Of a DNA stretch of 36,926 nucleotides, positions 6,339 through 36,926 are shown piece after piece. The DNA comes from a virus: positions 1 through 36,926 of the IMG/VR virus record IMGVR_UViG_3300037247_000922; one strand, given 5' to 3'. Numbering within the stretch: position 1 is the stretch's first letter; every line of letters begins with the position of its first letter. Under the pieces are notes generated by a model. It saw nothing but the letters and a program-made list of their open reading frames with translations. It was not told the DNA's origin and made no database searches. The position numbers and the translations under genes are program-made.

Positions 6339-6340
6339 CA

Positions 6341-6814: not shown

Positions 6815-6820
6815 ACGGAT

Positions 6821-6994: not shown

Positions 6995-7007
6995 AATAAA
7001 AAAAATT

Positions 7008-22449: not shown

Positions 22450-22451
22450 AG

Positions 22452-22703
22452 CTAATAAATATAGTTAAAAAATTCGTTTATTTCATCTTCGAATAAATCC
22501 AGGTATGCCCAACCGTTTTTTTCTTTTGGGTGTGTCCATTTAGGCTCGGTATTTATGACTGAACTATTAGACCACACACGGAACAGCATTACCTCCTTGT
22601 CAATTAATTCGGCGATAACCAATTTGTATTTTCCGGTGCTTAATATGATATTAACCCAATAAAACCCGCTTTTACTCGTTTTGATCCCTTTAGATTTTCC
22701 CAT
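22452..22703 (-). CDS. small hypothetical protein
   Basis: An 83-residue protein (MGKSKGIKTSKSGFYWVNIILSTGKYKLVIAELIDKEVMLFRVWSNSS...). The acidic C-terminus ends AYLDLFEDEINEFFNYIY. The frame is open from an ATG at 22712; 22703 is chosen because it lies clear of the upstream stop. It looks like a small beta domain of the 'protein-specific tag' type, with no known function. Confidence 0.55.
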   Translation of the reverse strand: MGKSKGIKTSKSGFYWVNIILSTGKYKLVIAELIDKEVMLFRVWSNSSVINTEPKWTHPKEKNGWAYLDLFEDEINEFFNYIY

Positions 22704-22714
22704 AATTTCCAAGT

Positions 22715-22954
22715 TTAATATTTAGTTATTTTATATTCAAAAGATATTCCAGGTAGTACAACATAATACCCTTCGTTTAAGCCCTTTTTAGTGTTTTCGG
22801 TATTGGTTACCTCCCAGTCCGGGAAAGTACTCTTAACCCTAATGTTTTCTTTGGTTATCTGGATATTAAAAGCCTTTGCCCTGCTTATCGTGGGTCGGCC
22901 CATTTTAGAAGAGGACAAAACCCAAAGCATTAATATTATATAAATTAATTTCAT
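22715..22954 (-). CDS. small exported or membrane-anchored protein
   Basis: A 79-residue protein whose first 16 residues (MKLIYIILMLWVLSSS) form a signal peptide or anchor. The remaining 60 residues form beta strands ending ISFEYKITKY. It overlaps the next gene upstream by four bases (ATGA at 22951). The envelope location, with neighbours that are also membrane proteins, suggests a host-interaction role. Confidence 0.6.
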   Translation of the reverse strand: MKLIYIILMLWVLSSSKMGRPTISRAKAFNIQITKENIRVKSTFPDWEVTNTENTKKGLNEGYYVVLPGISFEYKITKY

Positions 22955-23124
22955 GATTCGAAAAATTTTTTAATTTCTATGTAAAACAAGGAATAAGCCC
23001 CTTGTATAAAAATGCCCGCAAACAGGCCGAAGTTGTAAGCCCAGACCTTGGGTACCGAGTAGCTCAGTCTTTGCAACAATACCAGTACTATTAATAAAAA
23101 GATAAAATTAATTGTTTTTGGCAT
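22951..23124 (-). CDS. small two-helix membrane protein
   Basis: A 57-residue protein (MPKTINFIFLLIVLVLLQ...) with two hydrophobic segments, about residues 7-20 and 29-47. The start at 23124 gives the shorter overlap with the upstream gene (17 bases); 23133 is also open. It overlaps the downstream gene by four bases. The function is unknown. Confidence 0.6.
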   Translation of the reverse strand: MPKTINFIFLLIVLVLLQRLSYSVPKVWAYNFGLFAGIFIQGAYSLFYIEIKKFFES

Positions 23125-23461
23125 CTTTTTCAATTTTATGGATTATTACCCGGCCCGAGAAAAACCAAGCCGCTAGGGCAAATATAATCAACATTATGTT
23201 ATAAGGAACACTATTTTCGTAATAGTCCCAGAAACAAATCATAAGGATGTGTCCTAAAAACATTAATCCTGCGGTCCAGGCGTCGGCTTTCATGTTTTGT
23301 TTAGCTTTAAGCGTCCCAGGTTTGTCCGGGTCTAAGATTAATATGTCTCCTTTTTTAAACTTCGAAGTGTTGACGCCTTTGATCGTTCCTATTTTATCTA
23401 CATGGACAGCTTGGCCCTTTTTTAGCTTAATCCCTGAATTGTTGAATATTTTTCTCCTCAT
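23108..23461 (-). CDS. membrane protein with N-terminal beta domain
   Basis: A 117-residue protein. Residues 1-60 look like a small beta barrel (GIKLKKGQAVHVDKIGTIKGVNTSKFKKGDILIL). Two transmembrane segments follow at about 64-79 and 87-104. It is the second gene of the cluster behind the shared operator and is preceded by a three-base gap. It could be a superinfection-exclusion or host-membrane factor, but that is inference. Confidence 0.6.
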   Translation of the reverse strand: MRRKIFNNSGIKLKKGQAVHVDKIGTIKGVNTSKFKKGDILILDPDKPGTLKAKQNMKADAWTAGLMFLGHILMICFWDYYENSVPYNIMLIIFALAAWFFSGRVIIHKIEKDAKNN

Positions 23462-23464
23462 AAT

Positions 23465-23740
23465 TTACTTTTTTGAATATCTAGGTAAAAAGCAATTGCT
23501 TAACTTACCCGTATCTCTGTTAATATTCACATGTATTCCACATATATCATGGTTAAAATCAATATCTTCTGAAAGTAATAAACGTTCAAAATCTAAAGGA
23601 TTCCCATTCAAATGACAGGCTGTAAGATCCATTTGTATATCTAAAAAAGTGTATACATCACCTAATTTAATAGCCCTTCGTGCAATTTTAACCACTAATT
23701 GCATCTGTTCTAAGGATTCAAGTTTCCATTCTAAAATCAT
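23465..23740 (-). CDS. DUF6874-like protein, first gene of small-gene cluster
   Basis: A 91-residue protein. The pattern QLVVKIARRAIKLG...DIQMDLTACHLNGNPLDFERLLLSEDIDFNHDICGIHVNINRDTGKL is typical of a conserved Bacteroidota phage/mobile-element family (DUF6874). CH..GNPLD and NHD.CGI are the conserved features, though no reaction is known. It is transcribed from the promoter at 23766-23797. Confidence 0.65.
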   Translation of the reverse strand: MILEWKLESLEQMQLVVKIARRAIKLGDVYTFLDIQMDLTACHLNGNPLDFERLLLSEDIDFNHDICGIHVNINRDTGKLSNCFLPRYSKK

Positions 23741-23765
23741 CTTTTTTTTGTTTTTAAATTCTCTG

Positions 23766-23797
23766 TAAAGATAAACCTATTTATTATAAATACCAAG
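23766..23797 (-). promoter_or_regulatory. leftward promoter of the small-gene cluster
   Basis: On the minus strand CTTG (complement of 23794-23797), a 20-bp spacer, then TATCTTTA (complement of 23766-23773). Each box has one mismatch to TTTG/TAnnTTTG. Its layout and surroundings copy the promoter at 35058-35089. Confidence 0.6.
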
Positions 23798-23809
23798 TAT
23801 TTATAATAA
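23766..23809. promoter_or_regulatory. operator region repeated at 35058-35101
   Basis: Two symmetric elements: a GATAAAC-N2-ATTTATT half-palindrome (23770-23785), and a 13-bp perfect inverted repeat TTATTATAAATAC (23781-23793) / GTATTTATAATAA (23797-23809) with spacer CAA. The whole 44 bp matches 35058-35101 at 36 positions. It overlaps the -33 box of the leftward promoter, as expected of a repressor site. Confidence 0.75.
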
Positions 23810-23811
23810 TT

Positions 23812-25197
23812 TTAACATTTTTTAACATATTTATCTATTTTGGCTTTTATGGCAGACATTAGCCCCTCCTGCGTTCGCCCTTTGCGCTCTAAAGCCTTAA
23901 CGACGTCCTGGTCAATAGTTTTAACACTTATCAAGTGATTTATCACAGTTATTTCTTTCTGACCTTGTCGGTCAAGTCTTGCGTTTAATTGTTGGTAAAG
24001 CTCCAAACTCCAGGTTTGGCCAAACCAAATGATTATATTTCCCCCAGATTGTAAATTCAAACCGTGCCCCCCGCTTGCCGGGTGCATCAACATCACTTGT
24101 ATTTTTCCGGTGTTCCAGTCTTTTATGTCTTGGCCCGTTTTTAATTCCCGGGGCTTGTGTTTCTTCAAATATTCTTTAAGCCTGTACATGTCGTGTCTGT
24201 ATGTCCAGGCAATCAATACAGGTTTGCCCCCGGCGTCTTCTATCAGTTCTTTGCAGGCTTCAAGTTTAAGCCTGTGGACTTCGTGCCAATCCTTGTTTTC
24301 ATCATAAACCGCCCCGTTTGCGAACTGTAAAAGCTTGTTGGATAGTGCAGCGGCGTTTAAGGCGGTTATCTCTTCCCCGTCCCCGTAAAGGTCAAGTATT
24401 TGTTCTTTTTCAAAGTCGTCGTATTTTTTTTGTAGTTCTTCCGGGAATTTTATTTTGATGTAGTTGTTTATCCGGCCAGGAAGGTCCAGGTAGTCTTTCG
24501 CCTTCATAGAAATACAGATATCCCCGATTTTATCGTGTATCCGTTTTTCGTTTGCCTGGTCTTTCAATTTATAGTTAAAAATCACGGCGCCGTTCCGTTG
24601 GTTTGGCCGGAAGTACTCCTCCCGGTAATGCGTCAGGAACTTACCAAGCCGCTCCCCCCTGTCCAGTAAGTAGATTTGACTCCATAAGTCAATTAGGCTG
24701 TTAGGTGCGGGTGTGCCCGTCAATAACACAATCCTCTCAAAGGAGGGTTGCACCGCCCGGAGGGCTTTAAATCTTAAGGACTTCGGGTTCTTAAAGCTGG
24801 AGCTTTCGTCTATTATCAACATATCGAAAGGCAACATGTTACCCCCATATAAGCCGCAAAGCCAAGCGACGTTGTCCCGGCCAAGCGTGTAAATATCTGC
24901 GTCTGCAGACAGGGCTTTTTTTCTTTGCTTTTCGTTTCCGGCTATTATGGACACCTTCAGATGTTGGAGGTGTTCCCACTTCTCGACTTCATCAGTCCAA
25001 ACGTGTTCAGCCACCCTTTTGGGTGCGATAACCAAAACTTTGGTTATCTCAAATTCTTGGAACATTAAAATGTTTACCGCTGTCAAAGCGGAAACCGTCT
25101 TCCCTAGGCCCATATCGAGAAATAGACCCGAATGGGTATTATCTATAATATGGTTAACGGAGCGGTGCTGGTAGGGGTGGAGGTTGGATTCGTTCAT
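23812..25197 (-). CDS. SNF2-family DNA helicase/translocase
   Basis: A 461-residue protein with the helicase motifs of the SNF2 family: I DMGLGKT (28-34), II IDESS (129-133), III LLTGTPAPN (158-166), V SGGHGLNLQ and VI QQLNARLDRQGQ near the C-terminus. Such helicases lie beside VRR-NUC nucleases in many phage replication modules. The start at 25197 gives an ATGA overlap with the upstream gene; the frame is open from 25245. It probably remodels protein-DNA complexes or branched DNA during replication. Confidence 0.9.
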   Translation of the reverse strand: MNESNLHPYQHRSVNHIIDNTHSGLFLDMGLGKTVSALTAVNILMFQEFEITKVLVIAPKRVAEHVWTDEVEKWEHLQHLKVSIIAGNEKQRKKALSADADIYTLGRDNVAWLCGLYGGNMLPFDMLIIDESSSFKNPKSLRFKALRAVQPSFERIVLLTGTPAPNSLIDLWSQIYLLDRGERLGKFLTHYREEYFRPNQRNGAVIFNYKLKDQANEKRIHDKIGDICISMKAKDYLDLPGRINNYIKIKFPEELQKKYDDFEKEQILDLYGDGEEITALNAAALSNKLLQFANGAVYDENKDWHEVHRLKLEACKELIEDAGGKPVLIAWTYRHDMYRLKEYLKKHKPRELKTGQDIKDWNTGKIQVMLMHPASGGHGLNLQSGGNIIIWFGQTWSLELYQQLNARLDRQGQKEITVINHLISVKTIDQDVVKALERKGRTQEGLMSAIKAKIDKYVKKC

Positions 25198-25412
25198 ATT
25201 GCCCCTATGCCTTTTGTTGCGGGTTCTTTTTTGCATTGTAAACATAGCTGCTCGCTTTGTCCTACAGGCACAGTTGACTTTTTAATTTGCAGTGCGGCGT
25301 AGGCCTCCATACAATTAAATATAAACTGCCTTGCTTCTAAAGGTATTGCAGGTTTGTTTAATATATTCCTATAATATCCGTATTTTAAATCAAATAGTGT
25401 TTTTGCTTCCAT
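25194..25412 (-). CDS. small protein with Cys pair, before the helicase
   Basis: A 72-residue protein (MEAKTLFDLKYGYYRNILNKPAIPLEARQFIFNCMEAYAALQIKKS...). The C-terminus holds CLQCKKEPATK, a single CxxC pair that might bind metal as a dimer. It overlaps the helicase start by four bases. No family is recognised. Confidence 0.6.
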   Translation of the reverse strand: MEAKTLFDLKYGYYRNILNKPAIPLEARQFIFNCMEAYAALQIKKSTVPVGQSEQLCLQCKKEPATKGIGAI

Positions 25413-25468
25413 AACTATATTATCTTAAATCGTTAAAAACCAAACCAAAGCATGTTATAAACAACCAA

Positions 25469-25765
25469 TTAAAGGCTCCCCTGTATTTCATTCTCGATTA
25501 TTTCTTTTATTTGTTCCGAGGTGTCGATCACGTAAACACGAAAGCCCAGGTTTCTGAGTTTATTGTGTATAAACTTTTGAATCTTGACCGTTTTCTTTTT
25601 GGTCGTCTTTATCTCAGCAAAGAAAACAACCCCACCCGGCAACAGGCAAAGCCTATCCGGTAAACCTTTTATGTGGTTTGATAGGATTTTTAAACCCCAG
25701 CCTCCTTTGAGTTTTAGAGCCTCTCTTAATTTCCTTTCTAAAAGTTTTTCACTTTCTATTATCAT
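25469..25765 (-). CDS. VRR-NUC family nuclease
   Basis: A 98-residue protein. GLPDRLCLLPGG (34-45), then FFAEIKTTKKK (48-58) and Gln63 form the PD-(D/E)XK core of the minimal stand-alone VRR-NUC domain: Asp37, Glu51, Lys53 and Gln63. These phage nucleases act on branched DNA, usually together with the SNF2 helicase encoded next door. ATGA overlap with the HD gene. Confidence 0.9.
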   Translation of the reverse strand: MIIESEKLLERKLREALKLKGGWGLKILSNHIKGLPDRLCLLPGGVVFFAEIKTTKKKTVKIQKFIHNKLRNLGFRVYVIDTSEQIKEIIENEIQGSL

Positions 25766-26289
25766 TCCCTTGATGTATTAATAGTGTTAAAATATCTAAG
25801 AAAAGTATTTAGGGCGGCGCCGGGGCTTAGATAATGTATGCGCCTTGCCCCTTTATAAAAATTCTCGAACTCCATTTCCTGCGCTCTGATATCATATTCT
25901 TTTATGGCTGCCAAATAATCTATATCGATATTGAATTTATCAAATATTACTTTTATAATTTTGTCTTCGATTTCATCAAATAAGGGCAATAGTTCTTTAA
26001 TGGGTTTTAACATGTCCCCGATATATGCCTCCGCAGCGTCGTGGAGTAAGGCTGCCAAAGCAATATCCGGCTCATCTTCTTTCCAGCTATGCGGCAGCAT
26101 ATTAACTACCAGCATGCTGTGCTGGGCAATTGAGAAAAATTCGGGGGTATGTCCTCCAAAATGGGGTTTATAAGCTAAACCCTTTGCGATGTCATTTATA
26201 TTAATCATTTCAGGAGTGGGGTTTTTAAAATTAAACTCGATTCCCGAACAAACGTTAATACAATTGTTCCTTTCGTGTAGTCCTGTCAT
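25762..26289 (-). CDS. HD-domain nucleotide phosphohydrolase (YfbR-like)
   Basis: A 175-residue protein with the HD signature: His57 in AQHSMLV, and His83-Asp84 in LLHDAAEAYIGD, with a later Asp near 133. This matches YfbR/5'-deoxynucleotidase-like phosphohydrolases, which hydrolyse (deoxy)nucleoside monophosphates. It may tune the dNTP pool. It overlaps VRR-NUC and the upstream gene by four bases each. Confidence 0.8.
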   Translation of the reverse strand: MTGLHERNNCINVCSGIEFNFKNPTPEMININDIAKGLAYKPHFGGHTPEFFSIAQHSMLVVNMLPHSWKEDEPDIALAALLHDAAEAYIGDMLKPIKELLPLFDEIEDKIIKVIFDKFNIDIDYLAAIKEYDIRAQEMEFENFYKGARRIHYLSPGAALNTFLRYFNTINTSRE

Positions 26290-26489
26290 AATTTACCCTC
26301 CTCTACTATAGCTTTATACAACCACTCCTCGATTAACATTGTGCTTTCTGCGGAATCTATTTCAATCCTGTCTTTAGGGAACCAAACTTCGTCCCCTTCA
26401 CAATCCATAAGAATGTTTTTTCCGTAAACCCTTATCAATTCTGCTTTGATTTTTACAGCAGGCGTATTGTTTATTCTTAAATTATCCAT
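26286..26489 (-). CDS. small beta protein
   Basis: A 67-residue acidic protein (MDNLRINNTPAVKIKAELIRVYGKNILMDCEGDEVWFPKDRIEID...), probably a small OB/SH3-like barrel. The KAELI.V..KNILMDC.GDEVWFPK pattern recurs in small phage proteins of unknown function. It overlaps the HD gene by four bases. Confidence 0.6.
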   Translation of the reverse strand: MDNLRINNTPAVKIKAELIRVYGKNILMDCEGDEVWFPKDRIEIDSAESTMLIEEWLYKAIVEEGKL

Positions 26490-26491
26490 GA

Positions 26492-26725
26492 TCAGTTTAA
26501 ATTTAATTCTACGTTAAACTTCTCTTTCATAAATTCAATCAACTTGTTGACTTCTTTACATTCGTAAATTATTAATTGGCGAAAACCAATTAATTTCCTT
26601 TCAAAATACTCTTCCAAACTTGCTTTTGCATGGGCTTTTGAGAGTTTATTCTTAACTCTCATTTTGCCCTGTTTTAGCACTTTGCTTGCTTTGTCTAATG
26701 TAGAATATGTTATTAGGTAGTTCAT
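26492..26725 (-). CDS. small basic helical protein
   Basis: A 77-residue Lys-rich protein (MNYLITYSTLDKASKVLKQGKMRVKNKLSKAHAKASLEEYFERKLIGFRQLIIYECKEV...). It contains a strand-helix-strand pattern with the Lys-rich helix central, which could bind nucleic acid. ATGA overlap with the next upstream gene. Confidence 0.55.
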   Translation of the reverse strand: MNYLITYSTLDKASKVLKQGKMRVKNKLSKAHAKASLEEYFERKLIGFRQLIIYECKEVNKLIEFMKEKFNVELNLN

Positions 26726-26913
26726 ATTTGCAGTTTGCCCTTAGTTTTTAACCCTGCGTTAATAGCATCGATTATTTTTCTAGCTCTTATTGTTTGCTCA
26801 AATTCATTGTGAAAACACCAACGCTCCCCAGAATACGCCGAGCTGTTGCAAAAATCAATTAAATTTTCAATATCTTCAGGTCTTAAGTCTTTTATAATAT
26901 TTTTGTTTTCCAT
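26722..26913 (-). CDS. small hypothetical protein behind the primase
   Basis: A 63-residue acidic protein (MENKNIIKDLRPEDIENLIDFCNSSAYSGERWCFHNEFEQ...). Its start lies inside the last codons of the primase-helicase gene; 26922 is an alternative ATG. RWCFHNEFEQTIRARKIIDAIN suggests a helical C-terminus. The function is unknown. Confidence 0.6.
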   Translation of the reverse strand: MENKNIIKDLRPEDIENLIDFCNSSAYSGERWCFHNEFEQTIRARKIIDAINAGLKTKGKLQI

Positions 26914-29221
26914 AATATCCAAAATTCTTGGTTGACCGGGACTCCTCCCAGCCTTTCAGGCTTCGCATTATTTCGTTAATGTCTTTGGTATTGTAACGGG
27001 TAACCTCGGAGCGTTCTTTGCCCAGGCATTCACACCATATTTCTGCGATGCAAACAAATTCTTTTAATTCACCATCGAGGAAGTCCTCTTCCGCAGTTTC
27101 TAAATACATTCTGCGGGCGTCGATATCGAGGGCTTTCCAGCTCTGGGGTGTGTAAGTGTCCAAATACATCTCTATTAACCCCTTGCGGTCGTCGTTTTCT
27201 GAATGCAGACCCCTTTCTTTGTTTGCGATTACTTCCGCCTCTTTTCCTAAAAACAATTTTTCCCCCGCTTTGTAAAGTTCTACAGCCTCCGCCCAAATTT
27301 GGTCTATCGAGTTGTCAAACTCTATAGAAAATAAATCCTTTGTCACCTCGTCCGGCATCACGTCAACTGGCATAAACCTCCGGTTCCCGATGGGGTCTTT
27401 TAAAAAAGTCTTATCATTTGTCGTGCCAAAGAACACGCATTGCCTTTTGTAAGTTTCTGCTACCCGACCATAAGCGGGGCGGAAGGTGTCCTCCTGTTTG
27501 GTTATAAAATGTTTTACGGATTCGACCTCCGCCTTGCGAAGCCCCGCAAGCTCTGCCATTTCCACAAGCCAAACACCCTGTATCTGTTCCAGGGCCTCTT
27601 TGCCGTGCACGGTCATGAAAGTGTCGGAAAACCAGTCCTTTCCCAGTTTCTTGATGAAAGTACTTTTACCCGTGCCCTGTACCCCTACTATAGTCAATAC
27701 CAAATCAAATTTGATTCCGGGCCGATAAGCCCTTGCAACCGCCCCGACTAACATTTTACGGATTGCCTCCCTCGTATAAATATTATTGTCGGCCCCAAAA
27801 TAATTTACCAACAAACTATCAACCCTTTTAATACCGTCCCATTTTAGGGAATTTAAAAATTCGGTAACCGGGTTGAAAGATTTTTTTTCGAATTCCAAAG
27901 CTAAAGAGTCGTCAATTTTTAGATTGCCTGAAATCCCATAAATACTTTCTATATAATTCCGTACCCCAGAAAAATCCACGTTTTTAATAGGTTCGGGTTT
28001 TTTAATAATCCGCCAGGGTAAAGTACTGAACACATATCTTTTATTATCAAAACTATTGTGTCGAAATTTCCCTTTTAATTTTTCGTCGTTGGCCAATATT
28101 AAATTAATATTGGAAGCTATGGAAGTGTAATCCCCTTTTGCATTCACCTCCATTTCTTCCGCCCATTCTACGTTTATGTTTTCTTCTACAGCTTCGGCGA
28201 AGTCATAACGGGCGGAGTTTATATTCTCATTTGCAATTGTTTTCTTTACTTTTTTATCTTTCCTGGCAAAGTCCTCCATCGCTTTGAAGCTTTTGCCTTC
28301 GAGGTGCCCGAATTTATGAATACGAAGGAGGTCGAAACTATTACACAGTTTGCCGCTTGTCGGATCTGTGCCGTGGTGCGAATACGAAAATTTATCTTCG
28401 TAGATAATCAACCCCGCCGCCGTGGTTCCTTTCAAATAGGTGTATCTGCCTTCTCCGGCAGAAACATACTCCTCTGTTAAGAAAGTGTTAATGGCATCTT
28501 CGATGTTGTAAGACCTGCAAAAAGCCCCTACTATGCCCCGTTTTTCTTCGGGGTCTTCCTGCTTTTTGCTTTGGTCTTTTATTTCCTGGAATTTCTTCGC
28601 GGCCGTTGGCCACAAACTGGAATCCTGCCAGTCAAGATAAGAATTTAAAACTTCGTCCACATCCAACCAAGGCCCTTTTTGTTCTTCGAAATAGTATTTC
28701 GAATCCTTCGGTGTTGATGGCCAGAACATTAAACGGTTTGGCTCGAAAGTTGTATTATCAAATAATTCAATGTTCAAGCCCCCGGCGATCCTGCGGGCGA
28801 CTGCCACGTACTCCGTAGATGTAGCCTCCCTTGATAATGGAATTATCAAGCGGTAGCGGGGGGAGGAGTCGCAATGCTTGTGTGTCGAATGTATTACTGC
28901 GGAGATGTCGAATTGCAAACAGAAAACCTCCCAGAAATCCAAACTTGCAAAATCTATATCCAGAGTCAATAATTGACGGTGTACCACATTTTCCGGCTTT
29001 CTCCTCCCCGCACTCAAGTAACCGCCCACGTAGCCCCCTACATCTTTTATTTTTGTCTGTTCTTCTTTCGTGGCCTTGATGAACTCCTTAAAAGTCTCAT
29101 TGGTTTTATTTTCTTCGTTTAGCCTGATGACTAAATCCGACCATTTGATTTTTTTGTTTTTCCAAATCCTTGATTTGGCGGAGTGCCCGGTTGCGATGTT
29201 AATTATTTTGTCCTGATTCAT
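26876..29221 (-). CDS. primase-helicase (PrimPol plus VirE-type ATPase)
   Basis: A 781-residue two-domain protein. The N-terminal part has archaeo-eukaryotic primase/PrimPol-like features, LLTLDID (84-90) and HSTHKHCDSSPRYRLIIPLSR (111-131). The C-terminal part is a virulence-associated-E ATPase: Walker A GVQGTGKST (513-521), Walker B WLVEMAEL (551-558), sensor FFGTTND (597-603) and arginine finger GNRRF (612-616). It would unwind and prime DNA at the phage origin. ATGA overlap with the methylase. Confidence 0.9.
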   Translation of the reverse strand: MNQDKIINIATGHSAKSRIWKNKKIKWSDLVIRLNEENKTNETFKEFIKATKEEQTKIKDVGGYVGGYLSAGRRKPENVVHRQLLTLDIDFASLDFWEVFCLQFDISAVIHSTHKHCDSSPRYRLIIPLSREATSTEYVAVARRIAGGLNIELFDNTTFEPNRLMFWPSTPKDSKYYFEEQKGPWLDVDEVLNSYLDWQDSSLWPTAAKKFQEIKDQSKKQEDPEEKRGIVGAFCRSYNIEDAINTFLTEEYVSAGEGRYTYLKGTTAAGLIIYEDKFSYSHHGTDPTSGKLCNSFDLLRIHKFGHLEGKSFKAMEDFARKDKKVKKTIANENINSARYDFAEAVEENINVEWAEEMEVNAKGDYTSIASNINLILANDEKLKGKFRHNSFDNKRYVFSTLPWRIIKKPEPIKNVDFSGVRNYIESIYGISGNLKIDDSLALEFEKKSFNPVTEFLNSLKWDGIKRVDSLLVNYFGADNNIYTREAIRKMLVGAVARAYRPGIKFDLVLTIVGVQGTGKSTFIKKLGKDWFSDTFMTVHGKEALEQIQGVWLVEMAELAGLRKAEVESVKHFITKQEDTFRPAYGRVAETYKRQCVFFGTTNDKTFLKDPIGNRRFMPVDVMPDEVTKDLFSIEFDNSIDQIWAEAVELYKAGEKLFLGKEAEVIANKERGLHSENDDRKGLIEMYLDTYTPQSWKALDIDARRMYLETAEEDFLDGELKEFVCIAEIWCECLGKERSEVTRYNTKDINEIMRSLKGWEESRSTKNFGYYGKQKYYKRLKT

Positions 29222-29934
29222 AGTATAGAAAGGGGCGGAGCTAAAAATAATTTTTCTAATCCTTTTTTAGCTCCTGTGTTTTTTGTTAGACTGCTATTTA
29301 TTTCTTTTTCCCAAAGGACTTCAAAATCGTTTGGCGCTTCGTACGAACTTATATAAACCTCGTGACCTTCATCTCCTTTGTCTCTGCACCATTGCCAAAA
29401 CTTAGGATAGTCCAGTTCCTTTTTGTTTGCTGTGTATTTTGTAGTGTCTTGGTAAGGCGGGTCGCAATAAATAATACTGGTCGGCGGTATTTCTAAATCC
29501 AAATAACTGCAATTTTTAAAGATTATATTTTTCAAATTTGGGGATTGCTTAATAGCGTTGTTGAAAGCTTCCAGGGGGTAATTTCTTTCCCCCACGCTAT
29601 CCCGTCGATAGCTCCCAAACCACATAGCTCCGAAGCTTAAACCAAAACCGGCGAACCCAACTACTTCAGGCTTGAAAATTTCTTTGTTGTTCTTTATGCA
29701 TTTATACAGTCCCTCACTTATTATTTTTGGGGGGATCCAACCCCCCTGCAAAGCTTTTAACAATTCAATTAAATAGTAATTTATATCTGCCCCTATCCGG
29801 TTACCTTCGGCTTTGTCGATAAGGTTTGCACCTCCAACAAAAGGCTCGACGTACCATTGTCCTGAAGTTCTGTTTTGTAGAACAATAGGTAAAATGTATT
29901 TTGCTATTCTATTCTTACTACCCATGTACTTCAT
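29218..29934 (-). CDS. DNA adenine methyltransferase (Dam/D12 class)
   Basis: A 238-residue enzyme. It has the N-terminal MKYMGSKNRIAKYI, the SAM-binding VEPFVGGANL (29-38) and the catalytic CDPPYQ (157-162, a DPPY variant of motif IV). This fits D12-class N6-adenine methyltransferases such as Dam. No restriction partner is visible, so it probably protects phage DNA or times replication. It starts just after the polymerase stop codon. Confidence 0.9.
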   Translation of the reverse strand: MKYMGSKNRIAKYILPIVLQNRTSGQWYVEPFVGGANLIDKAEGNRIGADINYYLIELLKALQGGWIPPKIISEGLYKCIKNNKEIFKPEVVGFAGFGLSFGAMWFGSYRRDSVGERNYPLEAFNNAIKQSPNLKNIIFKNCSYLDLEIPPTSIIYCDPPYQDTTKYTANKKELDYPKFWQWCRDKGDEGHEVYISSYEAPNDFEVLWEKEINSSLTKNTGAKKGLEKLFLAPPLSIL

Positions 29935-29937
29935 ATC

Positions 29938-31899
29938 TCAATCTTTTTTATAATAAGGTGTTAAATATCCGTCGGCTGCTAAAGGTAAACCTTTTGCCCA
30001 GTCCGGGGCTTTGCGCATATACGCCAGCATTAACTCCAAGTCGTCCTCCGCCCCGTAGCTTCCTATTTCGCAAACGGCTTCGTCGTGCACGTGCATAACT
30101 ATTTCAAAGTTATGACTTCTCAGCGTTTGCATGGAATAAGCCAACAAATCCCTGGCAATGGCCTGCACGATGTTTTCAACAAGTTTGCCCCCATAAGTGT
30201 CCACCCAGCCCCATTGTTTTGTATCTTGATTCGTGCCTTTGTACTTTATCGAAGTCTGCCCCCACTTGTTAACTGTGAAAGATGGGCTTTGGTAAAATAA
30301 TTTTCTTCCTGAAGGTAATTTAATAGTTAAGACTTTGCCGTCGTATTCAAATTCTAAACCCCTTGTACATATAATTTCATCAGTCTTTAAAGCTCTTTTT
30401 GCGGCTTCGTCTATTTCTTTCCAAAGTAAAACTATGTTGGGGTTTGCTGTCCGCCACTTTTTAACTATGTTTTTCATTTCGACGGTTTCCATCTCGATGT
30501 CGTAAGCTTCGCACATCACGGTAAGTGCCCCGACGCTGCCCTGGAAACCCAGGGCAAGCTCCGCAACCTTCCCGGTCTGTCTTAACTTCGATCCTTTAGT
30601 AACTTCCTCGATAGGGATGTTAAACATCATAGCAGCCGAAGCTTCATATATTTTACCATGGCCTCTAAAAACATCCATCCTCCAGGTCTCCCCCGCAAGC
30701 CATGCGATAACACGTGCCTCGATTGCCGAGAAGTCGGCAACAGCAAAAACGTGGCCGGGTTTAGCAACAAAAGCCGTTCTGATTAATTGCGAGAGCAGGG
30801 AAGAAATATCCTCGTATAGCATCGTAATTGTGTCATAGTCCCCTGAAGCGACTGCGCCCCGGGCAAAATCCAAATCCTTTAAATGATTTTGCGGCAGGTT
30901 TTGCAATTGCACCAAGCGACCCGCCCAACGCCCTGTACGGTTTGCCCCGTAGAACTGGAAAAGCCCGTGAGCTCTCCCGTCACCGCAAGCACAATTCAAC
31001 ATTGAATTATATTTTTTAGTGCTTGTCTTGGCAAGTTTTCTGCGAAAGTTTAGAGCGTCCGAAACAATCCCGGGCCCGGCTTCATCTATAAGGGGCTGCA
31101 ATTGTTCTTTTGCCAAAGTTGTTACTTCCTTTTTTAGCCTTTCACTCAGCCATTTTTTGAGCTGGGCGGGACTGTTCGGGTTCTCTAAACCTGTCAGTTT
31201 TATCATTTCTTCGAGCAGATACTTGGAGCGCCGGGTGTCGGTATCATATGCATTTTTGGCAAATTCTAAATCTATTAGAATACCCCGGTCGTTAATTTCT
31301 TGGTCAAGTAGATAGTTTTCCCTTTCGGATTCTGGCATTTCATAACCCGAAAGTATTCGGGTTACTTCCCGCTCCGTTTCTACATCTTGTATGCAATATT
31401 CTTTGAACTGTTCCCATTTTTCGGGGTTGTGTTCCAGTAGGTTTCGCAACCTGCCCCCGTTTGTTTTTGTAGGTTTGCAAGGTTTGCAAAAGTAATTTAT
31501 TAAAGTTGTACCTGTGTTTGACTTTCCTTTAGACCCTAAGCCCAGGGCTTTGGAAACGTCTTTTAAAGAAAGGGGCAAGCCACAATAAGCGCTTTTGACC
31601 ATGGAGCAATGCCATTGGCTTGCGGGGGTTTCATAACCTATTCTTTTAAATGCCTGTCTTTCAAAGTTTGCATTGTGTGCATGCTTTTTTATGTTTGGGT
31701 TTACCAAAGCTTCTGAAAATTCTCCTACGGGAGGTGCATGATATCCTGGGATCACTTCTATAATCTTTACAGGCCCATCGTCAAAAGCATAAGCGATTAA
31801 CAATATTTCGAAGTCCTCGCTTTCAATATATTTATAAGCCCCGGCTTTGCGTATGTCTACGGAGCTATAAGTCTCAATGTCAATGTGTAAATTTTTCAT
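29938..31899 (-). CDS. polA-like: DNA polymerase, family A
   Basis: A 653-residue enzyme. The 3'-5' exonuclease has Exo I HIDIETYS (5-12; Asp7, Glu9), Exo II HNANFERQAF (75-84) and Exo III YCIQDVETE (168-176). The polymerase domain has NRTGRWAGRLVQLQNLPQ (320-337), motif A VADFSAIEARVIAWLAGE (387-404), motif B RQTGKVAELALGFQG (440-454) and motif C HVHDE (603-607). The O-helix aromatic is Phe452 where many family members have Tyr; known work on family A links Phe there to discrimination against dideoxynucleotides. It begins 18 bases after the third tRNA-like element. Confidence 0.95.
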   Translation of the reverse strand: MKNLHIDIETYSSVDIRKAGAYKYIESEDFEILLIAYAFDDGPVKIIEVIPGYHAPPVGEFSEALVNPNIKKHAHNANFERQAFKRIGYETPASQWHCSMVKSAYCGLPLSLKDVSKALGLGSKGKSNTGTTLINYFCKPCKPTKTNGGRLRNLLEHNPEKWEQFKEYCIQDVETEREVTRILSGYEMPESERENYLLDQEINDRGILIDLEFAKNAYDTDTRRSKYLLEEMIKLTGLENPNSPAQLKKWLSERLKKEVTTLAKEQLQPLIDEAGPGIVSDALNFRRKLAKTSTKKYNSMLNCACGDGRAHGLFQFYGANRTGRWAGRLVQLQNLPQNHLKDLDFARGAVASGDYDTITMLYEDISSLLSQLIRTAFVAKPGHVFAVADFSAIEARVIAWLAGETWRMDVFRGHGKIYEASAAMMFNIPIEEVTKGSKLRQTGKVAELALGFQGSVGALTVMCEAYDIEMETVEMKNIVKKWRTANPNIVLLWKEIDEAAKRALKTDEIICTRGLEFEYDGKVLTIKLPSGRKLFYQSPSFTVNKWGQTSIKYKGTNQDTKQWGWVDTYGGKLVENIVQAIARDLLAYSMQTLRSHNFEIVMHVHDEAVCEIGSYGAEDDLELMLAYMRKAPDWAKGLPLAADGYLTPYYKKD

Positions 31900-31917
31900 A
31901 ATGTAGCGGTTTTAAAA

Positions 31918-32000
31918 TTAGGGGTTGCGACCTCATGACGGTTACGTCTTTGCATTAAACAGTTAACTAAACTGCCCAAAGGACTCGAACCTTACCCCTA
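31918..32000 (-). tRNA. tRNA-like element with T-arm-type hairpin on the 5' side
   Basis: On the minus strand TAGGGGT and ACCCCTA make a perfect 7-bp acceptor stem. After AA comes AAGG-TTCGAGT-CCTT, a textbook T-arm loop sequence, but at the D-arm position. Next is the hairpin GCAGT-TTAGTTA-ACTGT, with a 7-base loop and T in the T33 position (anticodon AGT if it were one), and then TGCAAAGACG and a small hairpin GACG-TAAC-CGTC. No T-arm precedes the 3' acceptor. It is not a normal cloverleaf; a permuted, decayed or mimic element are options. Confidence 0.45.
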
Positions 32001-32015
32001 ATGTTTTTAATTTTG

Positions 32016-32104
32016 CAGGGTTGCCAGGATTCGAACCTGGGGACGTTTCCGCCCATCCTTGCGCAACACGCAGCTTTTTAAGCTGCCCAGTTTTGCACAA
32101 CCCT
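32016..32104 (-). tRNA. tRNA-like element with long variable arm
   Basis: On the minus strand AGGGTTG and CAACCCT pair (7 bp), followed in the 3' part by a perfect T-arm CCAGG-TTCGAAT-CCTGG. A hairpin GCAGC-TTAAAAA-GCTGC has a 7-base loop (anticodon position AAA) and lies only 11 bases from the acceptor, so no D-arm fits. A variable arm GGGCG-GAAA-CGTCC has a GNRA tetraloop. GCGCAAGGATG before it resembles TTGCAAGGATAG in the next element. CCA is not encoded. The call is tRNA-like, not an assigned isoacceptor. Confidence 0.5.
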
Positions 32105-32107
32105 AAG

Positions 32108-32202
32108 ATAAAAAGTAAAGTGGGGTTGGCGGGATTCGAACCCTACTATCCTTGCAAAGTTCAGCTTAAACTCTACACAACCCCAAGTAATAAAAAGTAA
32201 AG
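32108..32202. repeat. 13-bp direct repeats around tRNA-like element 3
   Basis: ATAAAAAGTAAAG occurs exactly at 32108-32120 and 32190-32202. On the minus strand both copies give CTTTACTTTTTAT directly after a stable helix (the terminator hairpin and the acceptor of the 64-nt element), so each helix is followed by a T-rich tail. Confidence 0.8.
32121..32184 (-). tRNA. short tRNA-like element (64 nt)
   Basis: On the minus strand GGGGTTG and CAACCCC pair (7 bp), with discriminator A. The T-loop TTCGAAT is closed by three G-C pairs with mismatches outside. The only other clear hairpin is GAGTT-TAAGCTG-AACTT, whose loop lacks the T33 expected of an anticodon. At 64 nt it is too short for a D-arm and an anticodon arm together. 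It shares GGGTTGTG at the 5' end and GCAAGGAT with the neighbouring element, so the two are related. Confidence 0.5.
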
Positions 32203-32241
32203 CCCCAGACGTTATTGCAGTCTATCAAGGGGGGCTTTACT
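32196..32241 (-). terminator. 11-bp hairpin after the DUF2815 gene
   Basis: AGTAAAGCCCC (32196-32206) and GGGGCTTTACT (32231-32241) pair perfectly around a 24-base loop that holds a small AGAC/GTCT stem. On the minus strand the helix runs into ACTTTTTATT. It lies between the DUF2815 stop (32257) and the tRNA-like elements. It can be a leaky terminator or an RNA processing structure within the operon. Confidence 0.6.
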
Positions 32242-32256
32242 ATTTTGATTTAACCA

Positions 32257-32799
32257 CTACATCAAATCGTCTGTGTCCTCCCCGAAATCTTCCGCAGCCG
32301 TAGCTCCGCCACCTCCTAAGTTTTCGCCGTCCTCCAGTTTTTGAAGGTTATTAAGACCACAAGCAATACCTTTATTACCCCCTTTGTTGTAAGGGTAAAA
32401 ATTGATACTGGCACGACCATAACATCCCGAATAAAACTCCGAACGGTCGATAATTTCGTTTGTGTTTTCATCAACCAAACCCGGTTTTGTTGAACTTTTG
32501 GCACTTACGAAGAAACAATTTTCATACTCTTCCTTGTCAGGCATTTCTTCGTCCCCATCTCTTAGCGCTGGATAGCGATAAGTTTTTGGAATCTTACCCC
32601 CAAACGTTTTACTCTTGCCTTCGAGTTCTGCGGCTTTGATTGCTTTTTCGATTTTCGCAATTGTTACTTTATCCTTCTTAGGTATAAGAAGGGTTACACT
32701 GTATTTCGGCTCGGAGTTTTCGTCCATTGCTTTGGGCTCGAAAACCTGGGCGTAAGAAAATCTTATGCCTGGGCCGGTTACTACTTTAGTTTCACTCAT
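32257..32799 (-). CDS. DUF2815 ssDNA-binding protein
   Basis: A 180-residue protein (MSETKVVTGPGIRFSYAQVFEPKAMDENSEPKYSVTLLIPKKDK...) with the pattern of DUF2815, a phage OB-fold family viewed as single-strand DNA-binding protein. The C-terminus is Gly-rich and acidic (GGGGATAAEDFGEDTDDLM), like SSB tails that recruit partners. The start at 32799 lies after the upstream stop; the frame is open from 32868. It is part of the polymerase/exonuclease module. Confidence 0.8.
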   Translation of the reverse strand: MSETKVVTGPGIRFSYAQVFEPKAMDENSEPKYSVTLLIPKKDKVTIAKIEKAIKAAELEGKSKTFGGKIPKTYRYPALRDGDEEMPDKEEYENCFFVSAKSSTKPGLVDENTNEIIDRSEFYSGCYGRASINFYPYNKGGNKGIACGLNNLQKLEDGENLGGGGATAAEDFGEDTDDLM

Positions 32800-32815
32800 T
32801 TGTTTTATTTTTAAA

Positions 32816-33985
32816 TTATTTAAAATCTTCTTTTGCCTGTTCGATACCAAGGGCTTTGCGCTTATCACTTTGGTCCACTAATGTAGGTTTGCCTACGGGT
32901 TTGATTACCAAAGCCCCTAAGAGTTCATTAAAATCTTTTTTACCGACAAGCTTCTCAATGTCCCCTATACCTTTAAGTTTCAAACTCAAAATTTCTGAGT
33001 CTTCGTACAAGTTGAGAATTTCTTTTACTTTGTCGTCGTCTTTCCATTTTCGATTACTTCGACCCTCTACGAGTTTCAACCCCGCCCACTTCTTGCCTGC
33101 TAAAGCTTCTTTAAGAAGGTATTCCGCAACGGATTTAATCCAGTCGGCTATCATAGGGTTGTCTTTGTGCACAGTCAACAACTGTTCATCTGTTAACAAG
33201 TGTGGGCTTTTAAATTCGTGCTTTGCAACTTTCAAGCTTTGGCTTGCCAGGGTTGCACACCTTGCTTTGGCTTTACACCATTTGCACCAAGACCCCGCAT
33301 ATTGTATGCCTTCACCCTTGTACGCTTGTTCAGCTTTGGGTTTCACAATACCTTCGCCCCACTGAACTAAATCCTTTGCAGAAATTTCCCAGGTTGAAAT
33401 ATGATCTAAACGGGGCTGCATAATATTTAAACGTACCGTTTCAATATCGTACATCATATCAAAAGCATCCAGAGCGCCAAGGGCATAAAGCTTAAGTTGT
33501 GGGTTGTCGTCTGCATCAACTTTCAAGCCTTTGCCATATTTAAGGTCGATCACATCCATAACCCCGTCCGCGATGATAATTGCATCGCAGGTACCGAAGC
33601 CCTTTTCAATGTAAGCGCCCAGGTCTACTTTCTCTTCTATGAGAAGAACGGCGCCGGGTGTTTTCTTCTTTGCGATTGCAAAAACTTCCAAAACAAAGTT
33701 TACATACTTTTGAACTTCGCCGTCCATCTCCGGGCTATAGAGTTCATGCTTTTTTTGTTTGTTTACTTTGTCCCTGTACTGCCGGGCATTTAAAATGCCC
33801 GCAGCTTTCTGGAGACTTAGGTCTCCGAATTCATGTGCCAAAGTACCCTCGGCAGCAAACACGCTGCTCCCCGGGTCTTTGAAGTCCTCTTCGAGCCTTG
33901 CCGAGGGTGTGCAGTTAAGCCACCTGGAAGCACCCGAAGCACTTAAAAGGGCGTGAGCCCTTTCACTGTGTTTAGGCCCTGCCAT
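32816..33985 (-). CDS. DUF2800 RecB/Cas4-like nuclease with Fe-S cysteines
   Basis: A 389-residue protein of the DUF2800 family, related to RecB/Cas4 exonucleases. Active-site residues are visible: His51, Asp134 in GFGTCD, Asp147 and Lys149 in DVIDLKYG, and Gln163. Four cysteines, Cys25 plus CKWCKAKARC (234, 237, 243), have the C-Xn-CX2CX5C spacing of the Cas4/AddB iron-sulphur cluster. It would process DNA ends for recombination with the neighbouring DUF2815 protein. The next gene upstream ends at its start. Confidence 0.8.
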   Translation of the reverse strand: MAGPKHSERAHALLSASGASRWLNCTPSARLEEDFKDPGSSVFAAEGTLAHEFGDLSLQKAAGILNARQYRDKVNKQKKHELYSPEMDGEVQKYVNFVLEVFAIAKKKTPGAVLLIEEKVDLGAYIEKGFGTCDAIIIADGVMDVIDLKYGKGLKVDADDNPQLKLYALGALDAFDMMYDIETVRLNIMQPRLDHISTWEISAKDLVQWGEGIVKPKAEQAYKGEGIQYAGSWCKWCKAKARCATLASQSLKVAKHEFKSPHLLTDEQLLTVHKDNPMIADWIKSVAEYLLKEALAGKKWAGLKLVEGRSNRKWKDDDKVKEILNLYEDSEILSLKLKGIGDIEKLVGKKDFNELLGALVIKPVGKPTLVDQSDKRKALGIEQAKEDFK

Positions 33986-34377
33986 TACGCTAAGGCGTTT
34001 AAGAATTCCATAAACTCCGGATACTTTGCAGCTTCGAGCTTCGAAACGTTTAAAGCGTCCAGCTCACCAAGCTTCGCTTTGATTTCAACTTTGTAAGCCT
34101 TTGCTTTCGCAGCTACCAAAGTCCTTACTTCGTCGATTGAAAAAACGTTTTCGTCAAACTCTGCGGCCCCCGCATGGGTCTCGCCTTTAACAATTATTTT
34201 TTCCTGCAAAGTACCAGAGGTTGTGTCTGGGGAGTCGACTTCTTTTTTAGTTGCCCTTTTCTTTGGCGCTGCTTTCGCAGTCTCTTCACCTGCCAGCACT
34301 TGAAAGAATGCAAGCCATGCTTTGACCTCTTTAGGGTCGGAGGTGTCTATCAACCCCTCGAATTTTAATTCACTCAT
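33985..34377 (-). CDS. hypothetical protein of the recombination module
   Basis: A 130-residue protein. It has an N-terminal helical region (DPKEVKAWLAFFQVLAGEE), an Ala/Lys-rich linker (AAPKKRATKKEVDSP) and a C-terminal helical domain (FSIDEVRTLVAAKAKAYKVEIKAKLGEL...). The C-terminus has the pattern of short helix-extended-helix/SAP-like domains, which may bind nucleic acid. It overlaps the nuclease start by one base. Confidence 0.6.
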   Translation of the reverse strand: MSELKFEGLIDTSDPKEVKAWLAFFQVLAGEETAKAAPKKRATKKEVDSPDTTSGTLQEKIIVKGETHAGAAEFDENVFSIDEVRTLVAAKAKAYKVEIKAKLGELDALNVSKLEAAKYPEFMEFLNALA

Positions 34378-34388
34378 ATAATCAATAT

Positions 34389-34586
34389 TTAGTTTTCACG
34401 ATAAAATAAGTCTATTAGGCTAACGCCTAATGCATCAGCCAAGTCCATGGCTGTAATCAAGTCCGCGTTTTTGCCGTTCTCAATCCTTCCTACGGTTTCC
34501 CGTGAGACGCCCGCCTTTTTGGCGAGTTGTTCCTGGGTAATGTCCAGGCGCCCCCGGTTTTCTTTAATCCTGTTTAATAGCTTCAT
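34389..34586 (-). CDS. Cro/C1-type HTH repressor
   Basis: A 65-residue XRE-family protein consisting of one helix-turn-helix domain (ITQEQLAKKAGVSRETVGRIENG). DNA-contacting positions lie in the VSRETVGRIENG recognition helix. The size is that of Cro. It is transcribed from the promoter at 34597-34627, whose spacer and -33 box lie in a 10-bp inverted repeat, so it probably represses itself and the replication genes downstream. Confidence 0.85.
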   Translation of the reverse strand: MKLLNRIKENRGRLDITQEQLAKKAGVSRETVGRIENGKNADLITAMDLADALGVSLIDLFYREN

Positions 34587-34596
34587 CTTTTTGAGA

Positions 34597-34627
34597 CAAA
34601 GATAATATAAAAAGTTACACTTCCAAA
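34597..34627 (-). promoter_or_regulatory. leftward promoter of the replication operon with palindromic operator
   Basis: Minus-strand TTTG (complement of 34624-34627), 19-bp spacer and TATCTTTG (complement of 34597-34604). ATAAAAAGTT at 34607-34616 and AACTTTTTAT at 34626-34635 form a 10-bp inverted repeat with a 9-base spacer over the promoter. It differs from the operators at 23781 and 35073. Confidence 0.75.
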
Positions 34628-34821
34628 CTTTTTATTTTACGTTCGTTTAAATATAATTGATGATAAAGGGTTAAAGGCCTTTCCAACATACCTGACAAGG
34701 TTTCAAAAATACTTTTGTTTGCACTATTGTATTTAAACACTTGTACGGGTTTTGTTAAACCCCGGTTTAACTGGTCGTCGATTACGGAGACTATTGCGTC
34801 CCTTGCCTGTTTAGACTTCAT
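34615..34821 (-). CDS. small regulator-partner protein
   Basis: A 68-residue basic protein (MKSKQARDAIVSVIDDQLNRGLTKPVQVFKYNSANKSIF...). Its start overlaps the end of the first HTH gene, so they are probably co-translated; 34830 is an alternative start. It is helical at the N-terminus. It might bind the HTH protein, but this is only from context. Confidence 0.55.
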   Translation of the reverse strand: MKSKQARDAIVSVIDDQLNRGLTKPVQVFKYNSANKSIFETLSGMLERPLTLYHQLYLNERKIKSLEV

Positions 34822-35044
34822 AAAACACATCTTTAGATAACCTGATATCCAGGTTGTTGGCCACGACTATCCTGGTTAAAGTATCTATTGTGTAACTGCT
34901 CCGGCCATTGATGACCGAAGACATTTGGGAGGGCGTGATGCCTGCGAGCTTTGCGGCTTTGTCCGAGGTTACGAATTTAATTCGCAGTTGCTTTTTTACT
35001 TGCAAGCCTATTATCTTGCGTATCATTATTTCTTTGCCTAACAT
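34811..35044 (-). CDS. HTH regulator, first gene of the leftward operon
   Basis: A 77-residue protein with an XRE-like helix-turn-helix (SDKAAKLAGITPSQMSSVINGRSSYTIDTLTRI). The frame is open from 35071, but that lies upstream of the promoter's expected start site, so 35044 is chosen; 35053 (leaderless) and 35026 are alternatives. It sits beside the divergent promoters and is the best candidate to bind the repeated palindromes. Confidence 0.7.
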   Translation of the reverse strand: MLGKEIMIRKIIGLQVKKQLRIKFVTSDKAAKLAGITPSQMSSVINGRSSYTIDTLTRIVVANNLDIRLSKDVFYEV

Positions 35045-35057
35045 GTTTTCCATATCG

Positions 35058-35089
35058 CAAAGATAAATCAATTTATCATAAATACCAAA
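35058..35089 (-). promoter_or_regulatory. leftward early promoter
   Basis: Minus-strand TTTG (complement of 35086-35089), 20-bp spacer, TATCTTTG (complement of 35058-35065). The palindromic element GATAAAT-N2-ATTTATC (35062-35077) covers the -7 box. It is divergent from the promoter at 35092. Confidence 0.75.
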
Positions 35090-35101
35090 TATTTGTTATA
35101 T
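35073..35101. promoter_or_regulatory. operator between divergent promoters, repeated at 23781-23809
   Basis: An imperfect palindrome around ATAAATA-CCAAA-TATTTGT, matching 24 of 29 bases of the perfect palindrome at 23781-23809. It covers the -33 boxes of both divergent promoters (35086-35089 and 35092-35095), so one bound protein could block both directions. Confidence 0.75.
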
Positions 35102-35123
35102 TGATAAATATGTTTATCTTTGT
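35092..35123 (+). promoter_or_regulatory. rightward early promoter
   Basis: TTTG at 35092-35095, 19-bp spacer and TATCTTTG at 35115-35122. The 22 bases 35102-35123 are identical to 2743-2764. It serves the ATG at 35136, 13 bases downstream. Confidence 0.75.
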
Positions 35124-35135
35124 AGAAAAAAAATT

Positions 35136-35447
35136 ATGGAAACAATTGAAAAAGATTTAAATTTAATACTGGATTACTCGACTAAAGAAACAAGCCGGAA
35201 TATTAAAACGCTTAAGGGTCTCGCTGTGATGGAAACCGAGGTAGAACAAAGTATTGAACTCCTTAATACGTTAGGGTACCTATCGGAGGGGGTTTCTTTT
35301 GAAAAAGGGTCTGTAAATTTAAAAGGGGTGAACTACGGGTATTCTTTACCTTATAATACGCTGCCTTATATGGTTGCGGGTTTTTTACAAAACAAAACTA
35401 AGTACAGGACTAAAAGTGCAGTATTATATAAAGCACGGACAAGATGA
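35136..35447 (+). CDS. early protein of unknown function
   Basis: A 103-residue protein (METIEKDLNLILDYSTKETSRNIKTLKGLAVMETEVEQSIELLNTLGYLSEG...). A helical N-terminus, possibly a winged-helix-like or other helical fold, and a short beta C-terminal part. It is the first gene of the rightward early operon, opposite the HTH gene, which is where a Cro-like antagonist or anti-repressor is often found. ATGA overlap with the exonuclease. Confidence 0.6.
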   Translation: METIEKDLNLILDYSTKETSRNIKTLKGLAVMETEVEQSIELLNTLGYLSEGVSFEKGSVNLKGVNYGYSLPYNTLPYMVAGFLQNKTKYRTKSAVLYKARTR

Positions 35448-36022
35448 TAAAAATATTCTTTGATTTAGAAACCACGGGTCTGAATGTTAAAAAACATTCG
35501 GTGCACCAAATCGCCGGGCTAATAGAAATTGACGGCGGAGTTGTCGAAACCTTCGACATAAAAACAAGGCCACACCTGAAAGCTGAACTGGACACACAAG
35601 CACTTAAGATTTGTAATAAGACGGAGGCAGAGCTTTTGGCTTACCCGGAAATGAACCAGGCACACTTTATATTTTCGAGGACACTTCGTAAATATATTGA
35701 CAAGTATAATCCTAAAGACAAAGCTTTCCTAATTGGTTTCAATGCCTCACATTTTGACTGCACTTTCTTGCGTGCCTGGTTCGAACAGAACAACGATAGT
35801 TTTTTTGACTCCTGGTTTTGGAAGAGCGAAATTGATGTGATGAGCTTGGCAGCCCAATACTTACTCGCTAGGCGAGTAAACATGCCAAGCTTTAAACTTA
35901 AACGTGTTGCAATGGAATTGGGTATAGAAGTAAACGCAGGGCGTTTACACGACGCTTTATACGATGTGGAATTGACCAGGGGGGTTTATAGGATAATAAC
36001 AGGGTTGGAGGTTGAGTTATGA
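35444..36022 (+). CDS. DnaQ-type 3'-5' exonuclease
   Basis: A 192-residue DEDD-family exonuclease. Exo I is FFDLETTG (5-12; Asp7, Glu9), Exo II is FNASHFDCTFLR (99-110; Asp105), and Exo III is RLHDALYDVELTR (167-179; His169, Asp174), the HxAxxD-type pattern. It could be a DNA or RNA trimming enzyme. The polymerase already has its own proofreading domain, so a separate role is likely. It lies in an early operon with small genes, overlapped by ATGA on both sides. Confidence 0.88.
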   Translation: MIKIFFDLETTGLNVKKHSVHQIAGLIEIDGGVVETFDIKTRPHLKAELDTQALKICNKTEAELLAYPEMNQAHFIFSRTLRKYIDKYNPKDKAFLIGFNASHFDCTFLRAWFEQNNDSFFDSWFWKSEIDVMSLAAQYLLARRVNMPSFKLKRVAMELGIEVNAGRLHDALYDVELTRGVYRIITGLEVEL

Positions 36023-36234
36023 GGTTAGTGGTGGGGTGCAATTGCCATTGGGTTTGGCAAAATCATAAAGCGATGAGGTTTGTACTATTGGAACTAAAAG
36101 GGAAAAGGGCAAAGCTGGGTACCAGGACAACACATAAAAAATTTTGGGTAAACGTGGATGATTTGATATTTATTAAAAGTAAACACAATAGAGCCAAAGC
36201 CGATAAATTAGAGTTGAAAGAGTTGTTAGGTTAA
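36019..36234 (+). CDS. small basic protein at the end of the early operon
   Basis: A 71-residue Lys/Arg-rich protein (MRLVVGCNCHWVWQNHKAMRFVLLELKGKRAKLGTRTTHKKFWVNVDDLIFIK...), beta-rich with a small barrel look (strands around MRFVLLEL, KAKLGTR and FWVNVDDLIFI). It may bind nucleic acid. ATGA overlap with the exonuclease, and the repeat array starts about five bases after its stop. Confidence 0.6.
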   Translation: MRLVVGCNCHWVWQNHKAMRFVLLELKGKRAKLGTRTTHKKFWVNVDDLIFIKSKHNRAKADKLELKELLG

Positions 36235-36238
36235 TTAC

Positions 36239-36926
36239 CAGGAGAAAATCTCTTTCAACAAATCTCAAATCTCTTTGAAGGGGTTTTGTCGTTTGTCGGG
36301 AGAAAATCTCTTTCAACAAATCTTAAAACTCTTCAAAGAGTTTTTGTCGTTTGTCGGGAGAAAATCTCTTTCAACAAATCTTAAAACTCTTTGAAGAGTT
36401 TTTGTCGTTTGTCGGGAGAAAATCTCTTTCAACAAATCTTAAAACTCTTTGAAGAGAATTTGTCGTTTGCCGGCAGAAAATCTCTTTCAACAAATCTCAA
36501 ATCTCTTTCAAAAGAATTTGTCGTTTGCCGGCAGAAAATCTCTTTCAACAAATCTCAAATCTCTTTCAAAAGAATTTGTCGTTTGCCGGCAGAAAATCCC
36601 TTTCAACAAATCTCAAATCTCTTTGAAGAGAATTTGTCGTTTGCCGGCAGAAAATCCCTTTCAACAAATCTCAAATCTCTTTGAAGAGAATTTGTCGTTT
36701 GCCGGGAGAAAATCTCTTTGAACAAATCTCAAAACTCTTCAAAGAGTTTTTGTCGTTTGCCGGGAGAAAATCTCTTTGAACAAATCTCAAAACTCTTTGA
36801 AGAGTTTTTGTCGTTTGCCGGGAGAAAATCTCTTTGAACAAATCTCAAAACTCTTCAAAGAGTTTTTGTCGTTTGCCGGGAGAAAATCTCTTTGAACAAA
36901 TCTCAAAACTCTTCAAAGAGTTTTTG
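36239..36926 (+). repeat. 58-bp hairpin tandem repeat array, right part
   Basis: The GGGAG/GGCAG motif occurs at 58-bp steps from about 36240 to 36878, giving 11 full units and a partial one at the window end. Four hairpin-arm variants are present: CTCTTC-AAAGAG, CTCTTT-GAAGAG, CTCTTTC-AAAAGA and CTCTTTGAAG-AGAA. Most still pair. The last 120 bases equal the first 120 of the window. No conserved reading frame crosses the units. Confidence 0.95.

Follow-up and report, generated by a model that had tools for sequence, protein, structure and literature searches.

A 58-bp tandem repeat at two intergenic sites of a phage genome, probably a lineage-specific minisatellite

Iterons, the tandem direct repeats of certain phage and plasmid origins, have a unit length of about 20 bp. 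BrickBuilt, a minisatellite or MITE of Porphyromonas gingivalis, has a 23-nt unit, 19 genomic copies, a common leader and tail, and inverted-repeat ends (PMC4596501). Racr RNA anti-CRISPRs are phage-borne mimics of host CRISPR repeats and occur as solitary units (PMC10651486). DNA-polymerase template switching has a described footprint, in which a short spacer flanked by perfect arms is inverted (PMC8604942), and this process can re-match stem pairing without selection on RNA (PMC8794818). Our search of the literature on phage minisatellites found nothing specific. Here, we describe a 58-bp repeat that occupies two intergenic sites of a phage genome and compare it with these systems.

The window analysed is the whole stretch of 36,926 nt of phage DNA. 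Proteins recognised in it are the large and small terminase subunits, DNA polymerase A, a VapE-like protein, an Enc34-type ssDNA-binding protein, a D12 methyltransferase, DUF2800 and a helicase. Among annotated records, those of Bacteroidota phages come closest: the DNA polymerase of Croceibacter phage P2559Y is 59% identical, and the nearest records based on the terminase are Parabacteroides and Bacteroides phages. Bacteroidota are the probable hosts. When window positions 22228–36022 are set against two related phages (L038 and L178), L038 has the helicase-to-exonuclease module at about 70–76% protein identity for the main genes. The terminase and structural module of L038 differ from those of the window, which indicates modular exchange near the origin-like region listed below.

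Tandem Repeats Finder, applied to the window, gives a period of 58 with 0% indels in three stretches: 1–196 (3.4 copies, 98% matches), 3990–4129 (2.4 copies, 100% matches) and 36241–36926 (11.8 copies, 95% matches). Chance occurrence of such arrays is far exceeded. Every unit is oriented along the + strand, and all three stretches are intergenic, with no unit within the genes of the main layout. Gene 36019–36234 stops just 5' of the main array, and genes 3606–3911 and 4192–4632 flank the small array. The period, single orientation and intergenic location given for the arrays in an earlier note on this DNA are borne out, with extents now set at 1–196, 3990–4129 and about 36240–36926. The arrays and their surroundings comprise the following features.

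1–196, + strand: left-end stretch of about 3.4 units, a probable continuation of the main array, terminating in GGGAGAAAA
199–560, no strand assigned: origin-like noncoding region with eight GTAAACAA boxes and an A+T-rich core; context, outside the array
3947–3979, + strand: intrinsic terminator with a G+C-rich stem and a T tract (−17.6 kcal/mol), directly 5' of the second array
3990–4129, + strand: second, small array (site 2), two identical units plus 24 nt
4156–4187, + strand: promoter-like boxes TTTG-N20-TAATTTTG of Bacteroidota type, read from the sequence, directly 3' of the second array
36240–36926, + strand: main array, which continues past the right window end; 11 full units and a further 49 nt lie inside the window

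The first 120 nt of the window are identical to its last 120 nt, and end-to-end overlaps of exactly 4, 62 or 120 nt match the repeat register. Because the window ends share 120 identical bases in this register, the arrays at both ends probably belong together as a single array of a circular map that was cut inside the repeats. The joined main array would contain 13–15 units, or a larger number should identical units have been collapsed. The small and main arrays share their starting phase (GGGAGAAAATC). A second contig, the metagenome record IMGVR_UViG_3300043256_000250, matches the window at 100% identity across the 12.7 kb that were compared and has both array sites, and its end falls inside the main array, as in the window; the recurrence of both sites indicates that the arrays are not an accident of one contig. 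Units abut directly without spacers, which rules out a CRISPR array, as had already been argued. Open frames of 90–97 aa traverse the array because stop codons are scarce in some units; these frames begin inside units and were not taken as genes.

The 16 complete units align without gaps and vary in 13 of 58 columns, with divergence among units of up to 15%. Adjacent units are identical in three cases (36472 and 36530, 36588 and 36646, 3990 and 4048), and a hybrid, unit 36414, lies where two unit types adjoin. Identical neighbours and a hybrid unit, as read from the alignment, are what tandem duplication and unequal exchange leave behind. Units are arranged head-to-tail, are constant in length, differ little from each other and lie within the range of roughly 10–100 bp by which minisatellites are recognised. 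It is reasonably likely, in our assessment, that the repeats are a minisatellite specific to this phage lineage that is tolerated in silent spacers. Replication slippage or unequal recombination would have made the tandem copies and would still reshuffle them, as the identical neighbours and the hybrid unit suggest. Among the units of the main array, the first is the nearest to the site-2 units, with three differences, and this resemblance suggests that a short stretch may have been copied between the two intergenic sites.

Relatives with about 50–75% protein identity have the array at neither site: it is absent both from terminase-side relatives (L012–L018) and from polymerase-side relatives (L038 and others). 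DNA-pattern scans of IMG/VR returned the unit in this phage only, among the matches listed; protein-guided scans of IMG/VR for phage relatives gave no further 58-bp unit, and phage records and plasmid records contain no other copy. No related unit is present in 84,980 species genomes, a collection outside which the true host may fall. Random scatter through host genomes, which the earlier note had named as the mark of a generic satellite, is thus not seen in these genomes, where testable. This distribution also bears on a host origin for the repeat, in which the unit would mimic a repeat or regulatory RNA from a host not yet sequenced and would compete for the protein that binds it. Repeat mimics are known in phages (Racr, PMC10651486). 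Such a decoy is nevertheless very improbable given the absence of a related match in species genomes or plasmids, the abutting of units without spacers, and an Rfam search of the array in which all matches fell far below gathering scores, with no family near the cut-off.

Several weaker likenesses were considered and rejected. A Streptomyces match (35 nt, 92%, E about 1e-6 within that genome) is not a repeat: it is ancestral intergenic sequence between rpmG-like and downstream genes that is common to other Streptomyces, and two Streptomyces are without 13 nt inside the match, so its likeness to the unit is coincidental. A 1.77 Mb Prevotella replicon gave weak matches only, and matches in L010 and in wider IMG/VR pattern scans are unrelated to the unit. 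The contig IMGVR_UViG_3300001765_000109 (L111, L119) has 14 nt (TTTTGTCGTTTGCC) in common with the unit and is otherwise a different repeat; the overlap is probably an artefact because the search pattern selected most of those bases. Several dispersed copies of TTTTGTCGTTTGCCTTCGACAGGCTCAGGCACC with the partner GGTGAGCTTGTCGAACCG occur on that contig as an interspersed element of inverted-repeat type. Iteron-like arrays of direct repeats of about 22 bp (AACCAACAAACAACCAACGG type) were encountered in four phages that encode a related exonuclease gene (L040:10977–11055, L042:9832–9904, L043:10333–10413 and L044:9827–9905).

Columns 28–47 of the unit contain a 9-bp inverted repeat with a 2-bp spacer, AAAACTCTT-CA-AAGAGTTTT. 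The hairpin is present in the units, as first noted; the accompanying claim that its arms keep pairing does not hold throughout. The stem is perfect or is preserved through G-T pairs in 11 of the 16 units, and one or two stem pairs are mismatched in the remaining five (36414, 36472, 36530, 36588 and 36646), which have hairpin energies of −0.5 to −3.9 kcal/mol. Over the 11 distinct units, pairing is kept in 94% of stem cells. The loop sequences TTCAAA and TTTGAA had been noted as variants of the loop; this is not free variation, since they are reverse complements, and the change between them is a CA-to-TG flip of the 2-bp spacer, that is, a spacer inversion. Two unit pairs (36298/36356 and 36704/36762) differ solely by this flip at the centre of the 9-bp inverted repeat. 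These pairs suggest that template switching within the inverted repeat of the unit may flip CA to TG and can re-match the arms. A two-sided change affects one of eight stem pairs (columns 31–44). The covariation score was matched by 9 of 500 shuffles, in a control that ignores the relatedness of units, and when six stem mutations are placed at random, at least one compensated pair results in about 27% of simulated runs. Since template switching or chance can account for the pairing, its preservation is not evidence of an RNA function, and the proposal of an RNA or single-strand DNA function that had been drawn from it is not sustained. Compared with shuffles, the main array folds with z of −12.4, which is largely an effect of repetition because shuffling destroys the repeats. 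Most shuffles of a single unit fold less well than the unit itself (z from −1.2 to −3.1), and arrays of shuffled units reach the real folding value in 12, 3 and 0 of 150 cases for three unit types. A modest excess of structure over shuffled-unit arrays remains.

At site 2, the array follows the terminator and precedes the promoter-like boxes (TTTG at 4156–4159, TAATTTTG at 4180–4187), as described previously, and gene 4192–4632 comes next. Before the counterpart of this gene, the relative L012 has similar promoter-like boxes alone, and L013 has a terminator-like inverted repeat and a promoter alone; neither has an array. Genes 4632–5591, 5554–6045 and 6045–6338 (window 4632–6340) are a lineage-specific insertion adjoining the second array, and the genes that flank this insertion are close neighbours in L012–L014. 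At site 1, the main array sits between the last right-arm gene (36019–36234) and the noncoding origin-like region. No other terminator was seen after this gene, where L038 has a terminator of −18.0 kcal/mol between its last gene and its origin-like region. A DNA methyltransferase gene (6805–7785) precedes the origin-like region of L038.

These settings would suit a functional transcription insulator in which the units jointly form a series of weak terminators or polymerase roadblocks at both sites; site 2 is flanked by a terminator and promoter-like boxes, and the main array takes the position of the L038 terminator. However, the unit is not itself an intrinsic terminator: its stem has two G-C pairs and an energy of −6.2 kcal/mol, weaker still in five units, against −17.6 kcal/mol at site 2 and −18.0 kcal/mol in L038, and a terminator scan leaves the hairpin unflagged. 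A strong terminator is also already present at site 2, and relatives do without the array. Insulation, as put forward in the earlier note, is therefore weakly founded, and we consider it unlikely. If the repeats are a tolerated minisatellite, the array would persist because both gaps, one between a terminator and a promoter and the other between the last right-arm gene and the origin-like region, tolerate extra DNA. The units behind gene 36019–36234 might also act as successive poor terminators, or have some other weak side effect, but this reading does not need one.

The origin-like region at 199–560 can be aligned to noncoding stretches in L038, in Croceibacter phage P2559Y (in two places) and in L180. 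It probably acts as an origin of replication or a control region, and is a candidate for this role in the phage group. Boxes of GTAAACAA/TTGTTTAC around an A+T-rich core occur at L038:7834–8055, L193:23618–23817 and 43005–43129, and L180:19567–19858, and the region is conserved among phages that have the polymerase module in common. The 58-bp repeats could serve replication or packaging, either as an origin accessory (protein-binding repeats or a fork barrier) or, close to the terminase genes, as a packaging site. The conserved region of GTAAACAA boxes and A+T-rich DNA directly adjoins the main array, and the terminase small subunit gene begins about 600 bp beyond the array. Yet the origin-like region is kept in L038, P2559Y and L180, which have no 58-bp array, and the second array lies 4 kb away within the structural module. 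The longest invariant run among the units is 11 columns, which is no longer than expected when 13 variable columns are placed at random (P=0.62), so the unit has no conserved core beyond chance. A replication or packaging element is accordingly a doubtful explanation, to which we give a low probability.

Three observations count against a minisatellite. Two sites have one orientation and one starting phase, which an accidental product need not have; units and arrays of real units fold better than most shuffled counterparts; and site 1 is without another visible terminator where L038 has a strong one. A recently acquired functional cassette carried by the phage, for example a structured RNA or protein-binding array used in insulation or near-origin replication control and kept at transcription boundaries, is a possibility that we rate as slim. 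Jointly, the explanations that invoke a dedicated function hold an appreciable minority of the probability, and none individually exceeds the low standing of the insulator. The locus is a warning case, in that the pairing looks selected, yet the loops differ by spacer inversion and chance suffices for the compensated pair. Should a function be demonstrated, the arrays would represent a new use of noncoding repeats by a compact phage genome. Their present value is mainly that they document the growth of such arrays in phage intergenic gaps.

Comparison with known systems places the repeat nearest to several without complete agreement with any. Like iteron-type phage and plasmid origins, it has tandem direct repeats adjoining an A+T-rich region, whereas its unit is 58 bp long and the conserved boxes of the family are the GTAAACAA repeats rather than the 58-mer. 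Like Racr (PMC10651486), it consists of repeats on a phage without spacers, but its units are tandem, and no likeness to host CRISPR repeats was found. It shares with template-switch inversions (PMC8604942; PMC8794818) a recurrent 2-bp CA/TG flip, perfect arms and arms that are sometimes re-matched; the published cases are single inverted repeats in yeast genes and RNA genes, with arms of at least 10 bp in yeast, whereas here the arms are 9 bp and belong to a tandem array of a phage. BrickBuilt differs in its copy number and ends: the phage repeat has a 58-bp unit at two sites without common flanks or terminal inverted repeats, and in the 60-nt flanks of the two arrays, searched for MITE features, there is no 8-nt inverted repeat and no common 7-nt word. 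In other respects BrickBuilt resembles the phage arrays, since both are Bacteroidota-associated, are restricted in distribution (to a species for BrickBuilt), and are intergenic, spacerless direct repeats with predicted stem-loops; BrickBuilt is also often flanked by terminators (PMC4596501), which we count as a further likeness.
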